A DNA stretch of 41,524 bases. Origin: Hyphomicrobiales bacterium. GTDB taxonomy: Bacteria > Pseudomonadota > Alphaproteobacteria > Rhizobiales > HXMU1428-3. The notes beneath the pieces are model-generated. The model was given only the letters and a program-made list of their open reading frames with translations. It was not told the origin of the DNA and did not search any database. Within the stretch, counting starts at the first letter, position 1. Each line of letters opens with the position of its first letter. Shown piece by piece: positions 3,801-32,110 of the stretch. The stretch lies in the NCBI GenBank assembly GCA_017640685.1, contig JAEPQF010000014.1:1-41524 (forward strand). Reading direction: 5' to 3'. The position numbers were made by a program, and so were the translations under genes.

Positions 3801-4137
3801 TCGTGTTTTTTTCTCTTTCACGGCTGTTCCATGAGCGTAAGCTCTGGGTCTACGAGGTGTGGCATTAAATGCCGGACGCTTTTAATTGTGGTTTAGCTTG
3901 TCCTCTCTTTTAGTGCGGCTTCAGTTTCCTTTTTTGTTCTTCAGATGCCCAATAAGCATCCGCAAAAGCAACCGGGGTTTATTTTCTCTCACGTGCTGTA
4001 ACAAAAAAGCTGTCGCACTGCGAGGGCGCAGTGCTTTAGTTTGCCCATTATCAACCGCGCCATCACCTACATTTTTCGCTCTCAGTAGGTTCGTAGTTTT
4101 GGAGGAGCAAGTAGCTTGTTAAGTTATGTCTCCCGGA
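3801..4137. repeat. Palindromic element cluster 1 (hemY/cobL convergent gap)
   Basis: This 337-base gap between convergent genes is filled with short palindromes. At 3805-3848 is a copy of a second repeat (TTCACGGCT.TTCCATGAGC) also found at 12703-12743. GGCAT/ATGCC pair near 3861-3872. At 3913-3977 a nested unit occurs: an outer CTTCAG arm and GCAACCGGGG enclose a complete inner unit with GATGC (3944-3948) and GCATC (3956-3960). GCACTGCG/CGCAGTGC form a perfect hairpin at 4015-4034. A further unit lies at 4031-4060 (GTGC, TTTA, then a TTTGCCC... arm, ending CGCGC). A reading frame across 3886-4122 is an artefact of these repeats. No separate classical terminator with a T-tract was found. Confidence 0.75.
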
Positions 4138-12946: not shown

Positions 12947-15900
12947 TTACTCTGCTTTTGAGTATAGTGTTTCTAGATAATGGTAAGCGCTATTGCGTTT
13001 GGGTTTCCAGAGGCCGCGCTCTATAGCTTGGCCAAATTGTTTTGCGATCTCTTCCATAGCGGGTTTATTAGATGTTTGCAAAAACTCTCGCACTTCTTCA
13101 TCAACCAAATAGGCTTCAAACAAGCTTTCAAAGTGGTGTTCTTCAACAGCGTTTGTTAAAGATGCGAAAGCACTGAGGTTGGTGACGGTGGCGAGGATTT
13201 CACTGGCGCCTTTAGAGCCGTGGCGCTGGATGGATTTGATCCATTTAGGATTTGCGGCACGACCGCGGACGATTTTGGCAATCTCTTCGCTTAAGGTTTG
13301 TACCTTTGGATTTTCTGGATTACTGTGATCATTGTGATAAATCTCAGGGGCCTTGCCACTTACGCTTTCAACCGACGCTGAGAGGCCGCCTTCAAATTGA
13401 TAGAAATCTTCACTGTCTAAAATGTCAAATTCTCTGGTGTCTTGGTTATGCACCACTAGGTTGGTTGATTTGAGCAAGGCTTTGAAATGCTCAAGCGCTT
13501 CTTTGCCATCTGTTTCATTTTCTTTTGCCTGGCCATAGGTGTAGCTGCTTGCTTTAATATATTGGTCTGCAAGCTCTTCTCTATCCGTCCATTGGCCTTG
13601 GTGGATCATGTCTTTGAGGCCGGCGCCATAGCTCATGTGAGCGGAACCGAAAATACGTGCTTTGGCTCTCCTATCCGCAACAGGTTCTTCGAGACCTTCT
13701 TTTTGAAGGGTGGCTTTGCGTTTTAAATAGGCTGCGCGCAAAGGGTTGGCGTTTTCATTTTCATCCAATTCAGCAACGGCATTGATAGCGCTTTGCAAGA
13801 GATCGATTTGAGCTGGGAACGCATCTCTGAAAAAGCCAGAAATACGAAGTAAAAGATCAACCCTTGGGCGGTTTAATTCTGACAAGGGAATGATTTCAAA
13901 GCCGGTGACGCGGCGCGAGGCGCTGTCCCAAGTTGGCCGTGTGCCGATGAAGGCAAGGGCTTGGGCGAGATCATCGCCGCCAGTGCGCATGTTGGATGTG
14001 CCCCATGCAGAGAGAGCGATTTGTTTGGGCCATTCGCCATTGGCCTGGGTGTAGGCTTTAATGACCGTTTCTGCTGATTGTTTGCCTAGGCGCCATGCGG
14101 TTTCTGTTGGGATGGTGCGGTTGTCTATGGTGTAGAAGTTGCGCCCTGATGGGAGCACATCTAAGCGGCCACGAGTTGGGGCTCCGGAAGGGCCAGGCTC
14201 AATGAACTTGCCGCCCAAGGCTCTCAAAACGCCATCTAATTCTTTAGAGGCACAGTCTTCTAGGAGTGGGCTTAGATGGGTTTTGATATAATCCAATACG
14301 GGGCTGGTTTCTTTCCAATCTGTATCAGGTTCGTGTGTCCCATTGACGAGTTGCTCGGCAAGAATTTCTAGTCTCTCGACTGTATCACCATTTGTGCGCC
14401 AGGATTGGTCTGTGATTGTTTGCAGAACTTCTGGCTTTGGGCCTTGCCAAGGCGTTGCCATTTCAGTGATTAAAGGATCAAAATTTAAGCACAGATCGTT
14501 TGCAAGGGCGCGCAGAATTGATTGATGCTCAGTTTTTGCTGTGCTGATAATTTCGCCTTCTTCTTTTCTGATTTCTCCGCGGGGGAGCCTTGTTAACGCT
14601 AAGAGCAGATTGGTTTTTTGCTCGTTCTTTGGTGCTTCGCCGAAGATGTGCAAGCCATCTCTGATTTGAAGTTCTTTTAATTCACAGAGGAAATTGTCGA
14701 GCTTTTGTAGTTTGGTGTCATCGCAATCGGTATCTTTAATATCGCAATCTTTTGATAGCCCCATGGATTGAGCGAGGTTGATAATGTCTTCACCCAACAG
14801 TTTCGTGCGTCTTGGGTCTACGCCGGCAGCTTCGTAATATTCATCGACCAGACATTCTAGATCTTTTAACGGGCCGTAGCTCTCTGCTCTCGTTAGCGGC
14901 GGTGTCAGGTGATCAATGATGACGGCATTAGTACGTCGTTTGGCTTGGGCGCCTTCGCCAGGGTCGTTGACAATAAAGGGATAAATATGAGGGGTTGGCC
15001 CAAGGATGGCTTCAGGCGCGCAAGACTTGCTGAGCGCAAGTGCTTTGCCGGGGAGCCATTCTAAGTTGCCATGTTTGCCCATATGGATGATGGCATCCAT
15101 TTTAAACTGGTCTCGCAGCCAAAAGTAAAAAGCGAGATATTCATGAGTTGGTGGGATGGTAGCATCATGGTGTGAGAGCTTGGCATCTAAGCCGCTGCCG
15201 CGCCCAGGTTGCACGCCAACGATTATACCCCCAAGTGAAATGGTGCGGATGAGAAAGCTGTTATCTTCAGTAATAAATGAAGGGTCTTTTTCTGGCAGTC
15301 CCCATCGGTCTACAATCTCATCTTTGAAGGTTTCATCGAGAGTGTTCCAGGCCTTTAAGTAATTAGTTAATGAGTAGTGATGCCATTTCGATTTATCTGC
15401 TGTGGCGTGTTGTAATTTCTTTATGAGCTCATCGCCGGTTTCAGGAATGGAGTTGAGCTCATAACCTTCTTTCTTCATTGCTTCTAAAAGCTTGATGGTG
15501 CCAGCCGGAGTATCTAGCCCGACGCCGTTGGCAATGCGGCCATCATTTGAAGGGTAGTTTGATAAGATAAGAGCGACCTTGCGGTTTTCAATTTTTGTGT
15601 TTTGTAGTTTGGTCCAGCTTGTAGCTAATTGCGCAACGAACTTTGTTCGGCTCGGTTCAGCTTTATGACCAACAAGTGAGGTCTCTACATTTTCATCTCT
15701 GCCGAAATCTGATTTGAATGAGATTGCTCTTGTGGTGATGCGGCCATCGATCTCGGGTAGGGTGACATTCATGGCGATGTCTCTGGAAATGAGCCCTCTT
15801 GGGTTCTCAGCCCATGTGTCTTTATTTGAGCCTGAAAGAATGGCCTGGAATACCGGTGTTTCGGACCTATCAAGGATTGTGCCTTGCCAGTCTGTGCCTG

Positions 15901-16852
15901 GTTTTGAGATTGCAAAGCTGGTGGTGTTGATGATGGTCGCTGGTTTTGCGTCTTTGAAAATGTCAGCGATGATGTCTTTGGCGACCTGATCTTTTAAGCT
16001 GCTTGCGAAAATGGGAAGTGGGTTTAGGCCTTCTTCTTGCAGATCTTTGATGAGTTGATCGATGGGCTCTAGATCACCTGATTGCAGTAAAGCGCGGTAG
16101 AAGGTGATTGAGCAAACTTGTTTGTACTTCAGTTGCCCACCAGCAACCGCACTATTGATTTTTGATAAATCCCAATGCGATTTAATATCATCAATTGATT
16201 TGATTGTGCTCCCTGGCCAATAGATACCGGCTTTAGGCAGTGGCTGAGCAGGGAGTGGTTTGGTGATTTTTTCAGGCTCGATAAGATGTGCGCAGTGGTT
16301 TAGGAAATTGCTGTAGTTCTCTGGGCCGCCTTCAACCAGGTATGACCAGAGCTGGTCTGTTGTTTCCCCGCTTATGGTTGAGTAGGCATCTAAGGTTTCA
16401 TCTTTATATGCGGAGCCAGACATAACCGCGAGCTTGATATTTTCACCTCTGCAAAGACGGGTGAGTTCATCAAGGCCATATTGCCAATAAGACGGGCCAC
16501 CAAGTACACGCACGATGATGAGTTTGGCGTGTTTTAAGGTTTGCTCGATATAAAGATCAACAGAGTAATTGTGATTGAGGTTGAGCAAATTGGCCAGCCT
16601 AAGAGATTCTTTTGGTCCCTTCAGTTGCTCTTTTTTATTGCCTTCAGATGCCGACAATGCATCCGGCTTAGCAACCGGGGCGTGATGACCGTTAGACTGA
16701 GTGCTTTGTCGAATCTGTGAATAGGCTTTTGCAAGGCCGGCAATTTCTGTGTCAGCAGATGTGAGCACGACGATATCGCCCGGCGTTTGGGCCAGGTCAA
16801 TTGGGTCTTTGCCGTCGTCTATACCGCCAGCTTGTGCCGTCAATAAATGCAA
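12947..16852 (-). CDS. cobN: Cobaltochelatase large subunit CobN, with two in-frame repeat insertions
   Basis: Large subunit of the ATP-dependent aerobic cobaltochelatase (with CobS/CobT chelatase subunits elsewhere) that inserts Co2+ into hydrogenobyrinic acid a,c-diamide. Motifs: HMGKHGNLEWLPGK (near residue 595) and GGDDLAQALAFIGTRP to PRVDLLLRISGFFRD (near 950). The start is proposed as TTG at 16852: GGAG lies 6 bases upstream and the protein then begins MHLLTAQ, as usual for CobN. The ATG at 16864 contributes that GGAG and would give 1305 residues. Two palindromic elements lie in frame, at residues 58-79 and 234-243, in segments that look like surface loops between conserved blocks (before SLRLANLLNL, and before ITFYRALLQSGD). 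Protein function is probably retained, because the flanking motifs are intact. cobO and cobQ follow. Confidence 0.94.
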   Translation of the reverse strand: MHLLTAQAGGIDDGKDPIDLAQTPGDIVVLTSADTEIAGLAKAYSQIRQSTQSNGHHAPVAKPDALSASEGNKKEQLKGPKESLRLANLLNLNHNYSVDLYIEQTLKHAKLIIVRVLGGPSYWQYGLDELTRLCRGENIKLAVMSGSAYKDETLDAYSTISGETTDQLWSYLVEGGPENYSNFLNHCAHLIEPEKITKPLPAQPLPKAGIYWPGSTIKSIDDIKSHWDLSKINSAVAGGQLKYKQVCSITFYRALLQSGDLEPIDQLIKDLQEEGLNPLPIFASSLKDQVAKDIIADIFKDAKPATIINTTSFAISKPGTDWQGTILDRSETPVFQAILSGSNKDTWAENPRGLISRDIAMNVTLPEIDGRITTRAISFKSDFGRDENVETSLVGHKAEPSRTKFVAQLATSWTKLQNTKIENRKVALILSNYPSNDGRIANGVGLDTPAGTIKLLEAMKKEGYELNSIPETGDELIKKLQHATADKSKWHHYSLTNYLKAWNTLDETFKDEIVDRWGLPEKDPSFITEDNSFLIRTISLGGIIVGVQPGRGSGLDAKLSHHDATIPPTHEYLAFYFWLRDQFKMDAIIHMGKHGNLEWLPGKALALSKSCAPEAILGPTPHIYPFIVNDPGEGAQAKRRTNAVIIDHLTPPLTRAESYGPLKDLECLVDEYYEAAGVDPRRTKLLGEDIINLAQSMGLSKDCDIKDTDCDDTKLQKLDNFLCELKELQIRDGLHIFGEAPKNEQKTNLLLALTRLPRGEIRKEEGEIISTAKTEHQSILRALANDLCLNFDPLITEMATPWQGPKPEVLQTITDQSWRTNGDTVERLEILAEQLVNGTHEPDTDWKETSPVLDYIKTHLSPLLEDCASKELDGVLRALGGKFIEPGPSGAPTRGRLDVLPSGRNFYTIDNRTIPTETAWRLGKQSAETVIKAYTQANGEWPKQIALSAWGTSNMRTGGDDLAQALAFIGTRPTWDSASRRVTGFEIIPLSELNRPRVDLLLRISGFFRDAFPAQIDLLQSAINAVAELDENENANPLRAAYLKRKATLQKEGLEEPVADRRAKARIFGSAHMSYGAGLKDMIHQGQWTDREELADQYIKASSYTYGQAKENETDGKEALEHFKALLKSTNLVVHNQDTREFDILDSEDFYQFEGGLSASVESVSGKAPEIYHNDHSNPENPKVQTLSEEIAKIVRGRAANPKWIKSIQRHGSKGASEILATVTNLSAFASLTNAVEEHHFESLFEAYLVDEEVREFLQTSNKPAMEEIAKQFGQAIERGLWKPKRNSAYHYLETLYSKAE
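16124..16152. repeat. Palindromic element inside cobN (single)
   Basis: Unit GTAC, unpaired TTCA, GTTGC, loop CCACCA, GCAAC, C, GCAC. On the coding (minus) strand it reads in frame as AVAGGQLKYK, at CobN residues about 234-243. The same frame (GGG CAA CTG AAG) is used by the copy at the C-terminus of the secreted protease (37818-37845), giving the shared peptide GGQLK. Confidence 0.85.
16617..16679. repeat. Nested palindromic element inside cobN
   Basis: The outer unit pairs CCC, GTTGC (16624-16628) with GCAAC (16671-16675), GGG. In its loop lies a T-run and a complete inner unit: GCC, TTCA, GATGC (16647-16651), loop, GCATC (16659-16663), C, GGC. The 63 bases are exactly 21 codons, so the frame of cobN is preserved. 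They encode a hydrophilic loop (for example SASEGNKKEQLKG) between the AGLAKAYSQ and SLRLANLLNL blocks. Confidence 0.85.
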
Positions 16853-16864
16853 AAAAAGCTCCAT

Positions 16865-17171
16865 TTTAGTTGCGCTTCAGATGCCCACAAAGCATCCGCG
16901 CTATTTCGAGTTTGAGGGCGTTAAGGCTGAATTTTTAACCCCTCAAATATGTCTTATATTCCACGGGCCTAAAAATTCACCCTTGCCTACTCACGAACAA
17001 AATCTGAAACTTTTTTGGATCGAGCTTTGAGGCTGGAAAATAGAAAGATTAGGTTTAATTGATAGGTGGAAGTTTGTCTATTGTATAGCATGGATAATTT
17101 TGATTAATCTTGAGGGTAAAGTTTTGCCATTTTAAGGTGATTATATACATGGAAATAAGAAGGGTAATTAA
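16865..17171. other. cobN upstream gap with palindromic element and hairpin
   Basis: A single repeat unit fills 16872-16901 (GCGC, TTCA, GATGC, loop CCACAAA, GCATC, C, GCGC), within 20 bases of the proposed cobN start. A second strong inverted repeat lies at 16912-16946: TTGAGGG, a bulged C, GTTAA, paired with TTAAC and CCCTCAA. Both would be in the 5' leader of cobN if transcription starts upstream of them. I looked for the conserved B12-box (GCCACTG) on both strands here and did not find it. The remainder, to 17171, is AT-rich and must also hold the promoter of the plus-strand gene at 17172. Confidence 0.6.
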
Positions 17172-26443: not shown

Positions 26444-26658
26444 GCGCTTTAGATGTCTCTTTTTAGTGCGCCTTTAGGTTGCCCACAAGCAACCGGCGCG
26501 AAGCATCCGCAGATTTTCTTTTGTGCTTCAGATGTCTTTTTTAATACCCCTTCAGATTGCCCATTAGCAACCGGGGCTAAGCATCCGTACATTTTTATTA
26601 GCGCTTTAGACACTTTCTTATCTCCCTTTCGGTTTTCTAATAAAAACCGATCTAAAGC
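26444..26658. repeat. Palindromic element cluster 3, three nested units upstream of murJ
   Basis: This is the main content of the 401-base gap between murJ and oxyR. Unit 1 (26444-26510): outer GCGC, TTTA, GATGTC and GCATC, CGC enclose an inner unit GCGCC, TTTA, GGTTGC, CCACAA, GCAACC, GGCGC. Unit 2 (26523-26589): outer GTGC, TTCA, GATGTC and GCATC enclose CCCC, TTCA, GATTGC, loop, GCAACC, GGGG. Unit 3 (26603-26658): GCTTTAGA/TCTAAAGC enclose CGGTTTT, CTAATA, AAAACCG. An open frame across 26453-26785 is produced by the repeats (it would contain PQATGAKHP and PLATGAKHP) and is not called as a gene. The rest, 26659-26825, shows nothing distinct. Confidence 0.85.
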
Positions 26659-31874: not shown

Positions 31875-32110
31875 TTTAGTTTGTGCTTCAGATGCCCACT
31901 AGGCATCCGCACTGTTTGTTTGCGCTTCAGGTTGCCTTTATTTGTTTTAGATGCCCACAAAGCATCCGCAAGTTGCAACCGCGCTGTTTAAGTAATGCTT
32001 CAGATGTCTTCTCTGTGTTTCAAAAGCCCTACTGAGCATACGTGAGAAGCACCTTCGCTGTTTGCTAAATGTTTCAGACGAATTGCTTCGTCTTGATGTG
32101 GTAAATTTAA
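31875..32110. repeat. Palindromic element cluster 4 upstream of the His/Tyr-rich gene
   Basis: A simple unit at 31883-31912 reads GTGC, TTCA, GATGCC, CACTA, GGCATC, C, GCAC. A nested unit follows at 31922-31984: outer GCGC, TTCA, GGTTGC and GCAACC, GCGC enclose TTTTAG-ATGC-CCACAAA-GCATC. Degenerate copies continue to about 32060, and AGACGAA-TTGC-TTCGTCT forms a perfect hairpin at 32076-32093. The remaining gap to the next ORF (32111-32411) is described separately. Confidence 0.8.

Follow-up and report, generated by a model that had tools for sequence, protein, structure and literature searches.

A REP-like family of hairpins probably inserted in frame in the cobN gene of a Hyphomicrobiales bacterium

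A segment of the cobN gene in the window (the whole stretch of 41,524 nucleotides that was analysed) is very probably an in-frame insertion of a genus-specific, REP-like family of mobile hairpins, one that probably spreads via single-stranded DNA at replication forks. The element is best explained as a non-autonomous, REP-like hairpin; like the first-pass annotation of this DNA, which called it selfish or structural, we infer a nature of one or the other kind. The gene and the parts of the inserted copy are as follows.

12947-16864, minus strand: cobN, cobaltochelatase subunit CobN, 1305 aa (ORF; Pfam CobN-Mg_chel at residues 173-1291; PDB CobN 9uk9)
16617-16679, plus strand: element of nested hairpins covering cobN codons 62-83 (sequence; partly identical genomic copies; congeners without it)
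16680-16712, minus strand: rest of the net in-frame insert, or expanded linker, not attributable to the element (alignment with L062 and L097)
16607-16616, plus strand: T-rich 5' tag TTCTTTTGGT, an imperfect likeness of the family TTTTAGT tag (consensus of 127 sampled hairpins; this copy by eye)
16620-16628, plus strand: left arm of the outer unit, TTCA-GTTGC (sequence)
16671-16675, plus strand: right arm of the outer unit, GCAAC (sequence)
16640-16667, plus strand: inner unit GCC-TTCA-GATGC-CGACAAT-GCATC-C-GGC, within the loop of the outer unit (sequence and pattern match)

As the first-pass annotation stated, a nested palindrome of 63 nt (21 codons' worth) lies within the cobN ORF at 16617-16679. 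The codons covered are 62-83, which replaces the range of residues 58-79 given there. The layout is CCC-TTCA-GTTGC-TCTTTTTTATT-GCC-TTCA-GATGC-CGACAAT-GCATC-C-GGC-TTA-GCAAC-C-GGG. The outermost pairing is between CCC (16617-16619) and GGG (16677-16679), the outer stem is formed by GTTGC (16624-16628) and GCAAC (16671-16675), and the inner hairpin, with a stem of GATGC (16647-16651) and GCATC (16659-16663), sits in the loop of the outer one. The coding-strand RNA of this copy has an unusually stable hairpin fold (z -2.4). The 101-nt plus-strand RNA was no more stable than its shuffles (z 0.07), and the plus strand as single-stranded DNA was unremarkable in stability. No Rfam family exceeded its gathering score in the window, so that neither a known RNA family nor a riboswitch was recognized there.

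That a DNA element lies inside the gene, as had been proposed, is supported by its occurrence as a dispersed repeat throughout the genome. The 101-bp cobN region has about 50 matching places, many of them partly identical, and the pattern TTCNGATGC-(4-10)-GCATC occurs 127 times, as against 0 for the reversed pattern. This control indicates that the palindrome is not due to chance, and together with the dispersed copies it rules out a chance palindrome. A broader core pattern has 225 matches in this genome and 320, 247, 169, 88 and 26 in five further genomes of the genus; there are one or two matches in each of the two remaining genus genomes, and no more than five in any one of the 289 other genomes that represent the order. 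The hairpin family is genus-specific, being abundant in six of the eight genus genomes and near absent from the 289 others. The named relatives are metagenome-assembled genomes (Methyloligella sp. DHS20C07, and Hyphomicrobiaceae and Hyphomicrobiales bacteria of the OFTM series). No prior description of the family was found in the literature searched, which comprised open-licence papers. Further copies are present in the window.

3906-3977, plus strand: another nested copy (sequence matches)
26551-26573, plus strand: single hairpin unit with an ATTGC stem (pattern match)
31887-31986, plus strand: one unit on its own, then a nested copy in which the loop of a GGTTGC unit holds a GATGC unit, between two ORFs (pattern matches)

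Frequencies derive from a sample of 759 kb, which covers 22% of the genome. In this sample, hairpins lie mostly outside ORFs, though ORFs make up approximately 84% of the sequence; such scarcity would follow from the loss of most insertions into genes. Hairpins are also depleted between divergent genes (p = 0.002). Several other hairpins assigned to ORFs, located at the start of an ORF or within a short one, are probably non-coding.

The 127 sampled hairpins reveal a unit of about 35 bp, consisting of a T-rich 5' tag, a 4-bp outer stem, TTCA, an inner stem, a CCACnn loop, the returning inner stem, a C and the returning outer stem. The 5' tag is TTTTAGT-like or TT[AT][GT]T-like, and there is no conserved 3' flank or tag. 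TTCA is constant and lies opposite the single C, and the inner stem, of 5-6 bp, is GATGC, GGTTGC, GTTGC, GTTTC or one of several rarer forms. The outer stems are diverse (GCGC/GCGC, GTGC/GCAC, CGGC/GCCG, TGCC/GGCA, CAGC/GCTG, CGCC/GGCG and others), yet 33 of 82 are perfect 4-bp stems, compared with about 5 when partners are shuffled. As the outer stems vary and remain complementary, it is the fold and the unpaired letters that appear to be conserved, rather than the letters of the stems.

Units occur alone, in head-to-tail series, or one within the loop of another. Strict loop nesting was found 17 times. Seven stem combinations are represented, among them GATGC in GTTGC as well as the converse; nesting has therefore arisen more than once. 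The inner unit has the orientation of the outer in all 17 nests, and adjacent units share their orientation in 62 cases to 1. Within contigs, orientation is near uniform (127:6); on one contig of 1.16 Mb (G002:C1) it is 73:5, while gene direction varies. In G000, raw GC skew showed no association with hairpin orientation (64:61) until it was corrected for gene direction. With gene-corrected GC3 skew, the hairpin reads on the G-rich strand by 173:15 (173 of 188) over four genomes, a strand assigned from skew without an experimentally known origin as anchor, and with many unscorable stretches left out. By the usual convention, the G-rich strand corresponds in sense to the template of the lagging strand. 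Some cause besides transposition, for example selection, could underlie both orientation and GC skew. In 20-kb stretches of G000, G002 and G004, the gene-corrected GC3 skew falls into two classes, with absolute values of approximately 0.35 and 0.1, perhaps corresponding to two replicons or chromosome regions.

Alignment with congeners gives a net first insertion in cobN of 93 nt, or 31 residues, of which the 63-nt unit covers about two-thirds, with some 30 nt beyond it. The alignment with homologues suggested in the first-pass annotation supports an insertion: the segment is absent from about 30 homologues. The gap is one of 31 aa and extends past the unit. At this site, congeners of about 90% identity have AKAYSGFQNTSSLRLANLL and the window has AKAYSQIRQSTQSNGHHAPVAKPDALSASEGNKKEQLKGPKESLRLANLL. 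The sole exception among approximately 30 distinct aligned CobN homologues is L099 (G003:C339), a contig-end fragment of the congener G003 with 87% DNA identity, which carries the insertion. The insertion is therefore not unique to one strain, and either predates the split between the window and L099 or was exchanged. In the solved CobN chain 9uk9_A, only a short linker joins the flanking conserved segments, and the second insert described below is absent as well. The segment is accordingly atypical of CobN, as had been stated of the family, being missing from both the close congeners and the solved chain. Since CobN homologues other than one congener allele lack about 31 residues here, the segment is read as an in-frame insertion. 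No target-site duplication was recognized in the alignment of cobN with its relatives. The G003 bin holds two distinct cobN alleles on separate contigs (C284, with L096/L064, and C339, with L099), one of them with the insert, which suggests mixed strains.

The same gene is host to two in-frame hairpin insertions, and a further unit precedes it.

16128-16149, plus strand: second in-frame cobN hairpin, encoding the peptide AVAGGQLK at codons 239-246, with a net insertion of about 12 aa (relatives' alignment; array at the matching site in L064)
16876-16898, plus strand: unit of the family in the 5' leader of cobN, ending some 12 nt before the ATG (pattern match; relatives' alignment)

The second insertion, of 12 residues, is missing from L062, L063, L065, L066, L067 and L097. 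The corresponding site of the congener L064 is occupied by a longer stretch, NAVARRQSKAPLKSAVAATVAGGQPKEHLERGQSEAP, in which several hairpin-encoded repeats lie in frame. The CobN reading frame is uninterrupted: at 93 and 36 nt, both inserts span a whole number of codons, and neither contains a stop.

The enzyme had been thought unbroken by the element; in agreement with this, the ORF is intact and purifying selection acts on the codons to either side (dN 0.03, dS 0.78). An AlphaFold2 model of CobN residues 1-420, built with 25 sequences, has a mean pLDDT of 85.7, and values below 50 are restricted to residues 1-16, 64-77 and 237-239, that is, the terminus and both inserts. In the model, each insert lies in a loop that connects a helix with a strand. 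The loop encoded by the first is hydrophilic, as previously described, and was modelled at pLDDT <50. Between the window and L099, amino acids differ at 7 of 37 positions in the insert and linker and at 3 of 102 in the flanks (Fisher p = 0.004), with a dN/dS of about 0.4 in the insert and about 0.04 in the flanks. Given the low-pLDDT loop and an amino-acid change faster than that of the flanks, the first insert has the look of a linker that is tolerated and under weak constraint. Both inserts are probably translated, as flexible linkers. In the comparison of 16600-16720 with L099, the insert has fewer synonymous differences (5 at 24.8 sites) than the flanks (35.7 at 73.5 sites); this could result from exchange or from a pairing constraint.

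It is extremely improbable that the segment is an ordinary variable CobN linker, palindromic by coincidence, with no mobile element involved. The linker of relatives is indeed short and somewhat variable in length at this site, but the same DNA is present at dozens of other genomic loci, the same hairpin recurs at the second cobN site and in hisH and an smr gene (see below), and congeners of about 90% identity have no such segment. The dispersed copies already refute this reading, and the homologue alignments and the short linker of 9uk9_A rule out a normal CobN loop. Stability of the coding-strand RNA hairpin (z -2.4) would suit an insert that is never translated, being bypassed by the ribosome or removed by splicing; two stop-free inserts of 93 and 36 nt, both multiples of three, together with limited amino-acid change (dN/dS of about 0.4), make this highly improbable. 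It is improbable that the hairpins are retained because they serve the host, in mRNA stability, termination, regulation or control through the cobN leader, with the coding insert as a by-product. The depletion between divergent genes (p = 0.002) and the stable RNA hairpin speak for such a function, as does the leader hairpin of cobN, which has an aligned counterpart in L097 and variants with a changed, GTTGC stem in L067, L092 and L093. However, that hairpin is missing in L062, L063, L091 and L099, two genus members are practically without the family, and orientation tracks replication while gene direction varies along G002:C1.

The remaining explanations concern the means of spread. A classical GTAG-type REP, moved by a RAYT (Y1 HUH) transposase since lost or missed, is somewhat unlikely. 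Size, hairpin form, high copy number and mostly extragenic location agree with it, and a hairpin strand on the presumed lagging-strand template suits the single-strand chemistry of HUH enzymes, familiar from IS200/IS605. Against it, the unit end lacks GTAG, the units are arranged head to tail rather than as the predominantly head-to-head dimers of published REPs, and Y1_Tnp is absent from seven of the eight genus genomes, G000 among them; in the eighth, G004, neither of two Y1_Tnp copies is adjoined by hairpins of the family. A RAYT-driven GTAG REP was not favoured, as Y1_Tnp is not common to the carriers and the tag is missing. Nor was a reverse transcriptase, whether of a group II intron, a retron or another kind, favoured as the mobilizer: RVT_1 has one match each in G000 and G005 only (two of eight genomes), with no link to hairpin number. 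Neither the transposase nor the reverse transcriptase searched for (Y1_Tnp and RVT_1) is common to the carriers, whose genomes are drafts. Spread without an enzyme, in which template switching on the lagging strand and slippage at hairpins, combined with gene conversion, would generate tandem and nested series, is unlikely as a general account. It accommodates the strict head-to-tail series, the replication-strand orientation and the variable stems, and for series and nests template switching is a serious rival; it explains poorly how units with a conserved tag came to lie at hundreds of unlinked sites, and how complete units came to lie within loops.

We favour single-strand mobility at forks, which fits the lagging-strand-template orientation, the conservation of shape and the entry into like loops. 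Such mobility is known for IS200/IS605 and proposed for REPs (PMC6006769; PMC8266576). The hairpin strand, read from GC skew as the lagging-strand template, would undergo copying or movement at the fork in its single-stranded state, and the protein responsible would recognize the hairpin together with its constant loops. Existing copies would provide, in their loops, one favoured target, and in-frame inserts in tolerant loops would survive. The mobilizing enzyme, not found among those searched, may have been lost or may be of another kind. A fuller version is put forward tentatively, as possible rather than probable: a family recognized by its shape (constant internal and apical loops, with interchangeable stems) would owe its movement on single-stranded DNA at the replication fork to an enzyme distinct from the known REP transposases, and would prefer its own loops, so generating nests and repeatedly adding in-frame peptides to conserved genes.

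Palindromic repeats in genes are already known as a kind, from Rickettsia palindromic elements (RPEs) and intragenic GTAG/CGTC REPs. As in such repeats, the present copies are many and dispersed, and lie in frame in conserved genes (cobN twice, smr and hisH) while absent from some orthologues; as in single-strand mobile elements, they are oriented with the replication strand (173:15, based on skew, with no known origin). RPEs are described as in-frame palindromes in genes, of approximately 150 bp as first reported (Ogata et al. 2000/2002; PMC10969869). They resemble this family as dispersed palindromes of an alphaproteobacterial genome, in frame in unrelated metabolic genes whose proteins are apparently functional. 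Compared by description, the family differs from RPEs: it has units of about 35 bp or a nested pair of 63 bp in place of approximately 150 bp, occurs outside the Rickettsiales, and shows nested units and replication-strand orientation. RPE-like protein-coding palindromes are thereby placed in a marine, probably free-living alphaproteobacterium.

Intragenic GTAG/CGTC REPs occur in several bacteria, where groups or clusters encode 20-82 residues, and CGTC REPs are common in Alphaproteobacteria without a known transposase (PMC3733652). They are, like this family, short high-copy hairpins, mostly intergenic with some in ORFs. The family has neither end tag, bears a TTCA/C internal loop and a CCACnn loop, and is arranged head to tail and nested in loops, unlike GTAG/CGTC REPs, which form mainly head-to-head dimers. 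Its consensus shows no unpaired GTAG at the hairpin end, nor does it agree with the definition of CGTC REPs, namely a CGTC end tag, an 8-9 bp stem starting with AT, a 4-5 nt loop and a CCA tail (PMC3733652). REPIN/RAYT and IS200/IS605 systems (PMC3116915; PMC2817692; PMC6006769) likewise involve non-autonomous hairpins with single-stranded lagging-strand DNA as the presumed substrate, but in seven of the eight genomes here there is no associated Y1 transposase gene. Less usual in this family are outer stems that vary in a compensating manner while the TTCA/C and CCAC loops stay constant, nesting in one orientation, and the replication-strand orientation. These features offer testable clues to the spread of REP-like elements without a known transposase, such as CGTC-type REPs and RPEs. 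The cobN-leader hairpin of the stretch 16858-16902, stem-swapped or absent in relatives, makes a role in cobN expression testable.

Hairpin inserts are also present in other genes, and sister genomes without individual inserts allow the states before and after a protein insertion to be compared directly. An Smr-domain gene (L148:1473-2399) contains three in-frame units (AVAGGQSK, AVASGQLK and ADALWASE), which are confined to this genome and absent from all aligned congeners. In hisH (L148:9667-10386), there is one hairpin-encoded insert, PFSCPPATGA, shared by five congeners including this genome; four outgroups do not have it. A possibly rhodanese-like protein (L154:18677-19558, with L213-L215) has the hairpin-encoded peptides ALQLPTSNR and SVAHQQP in its N-terminal region in four congeners. 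It was not counted as a further coding insert, as the start codon of this 120-aa N-terminal region is uncertain.
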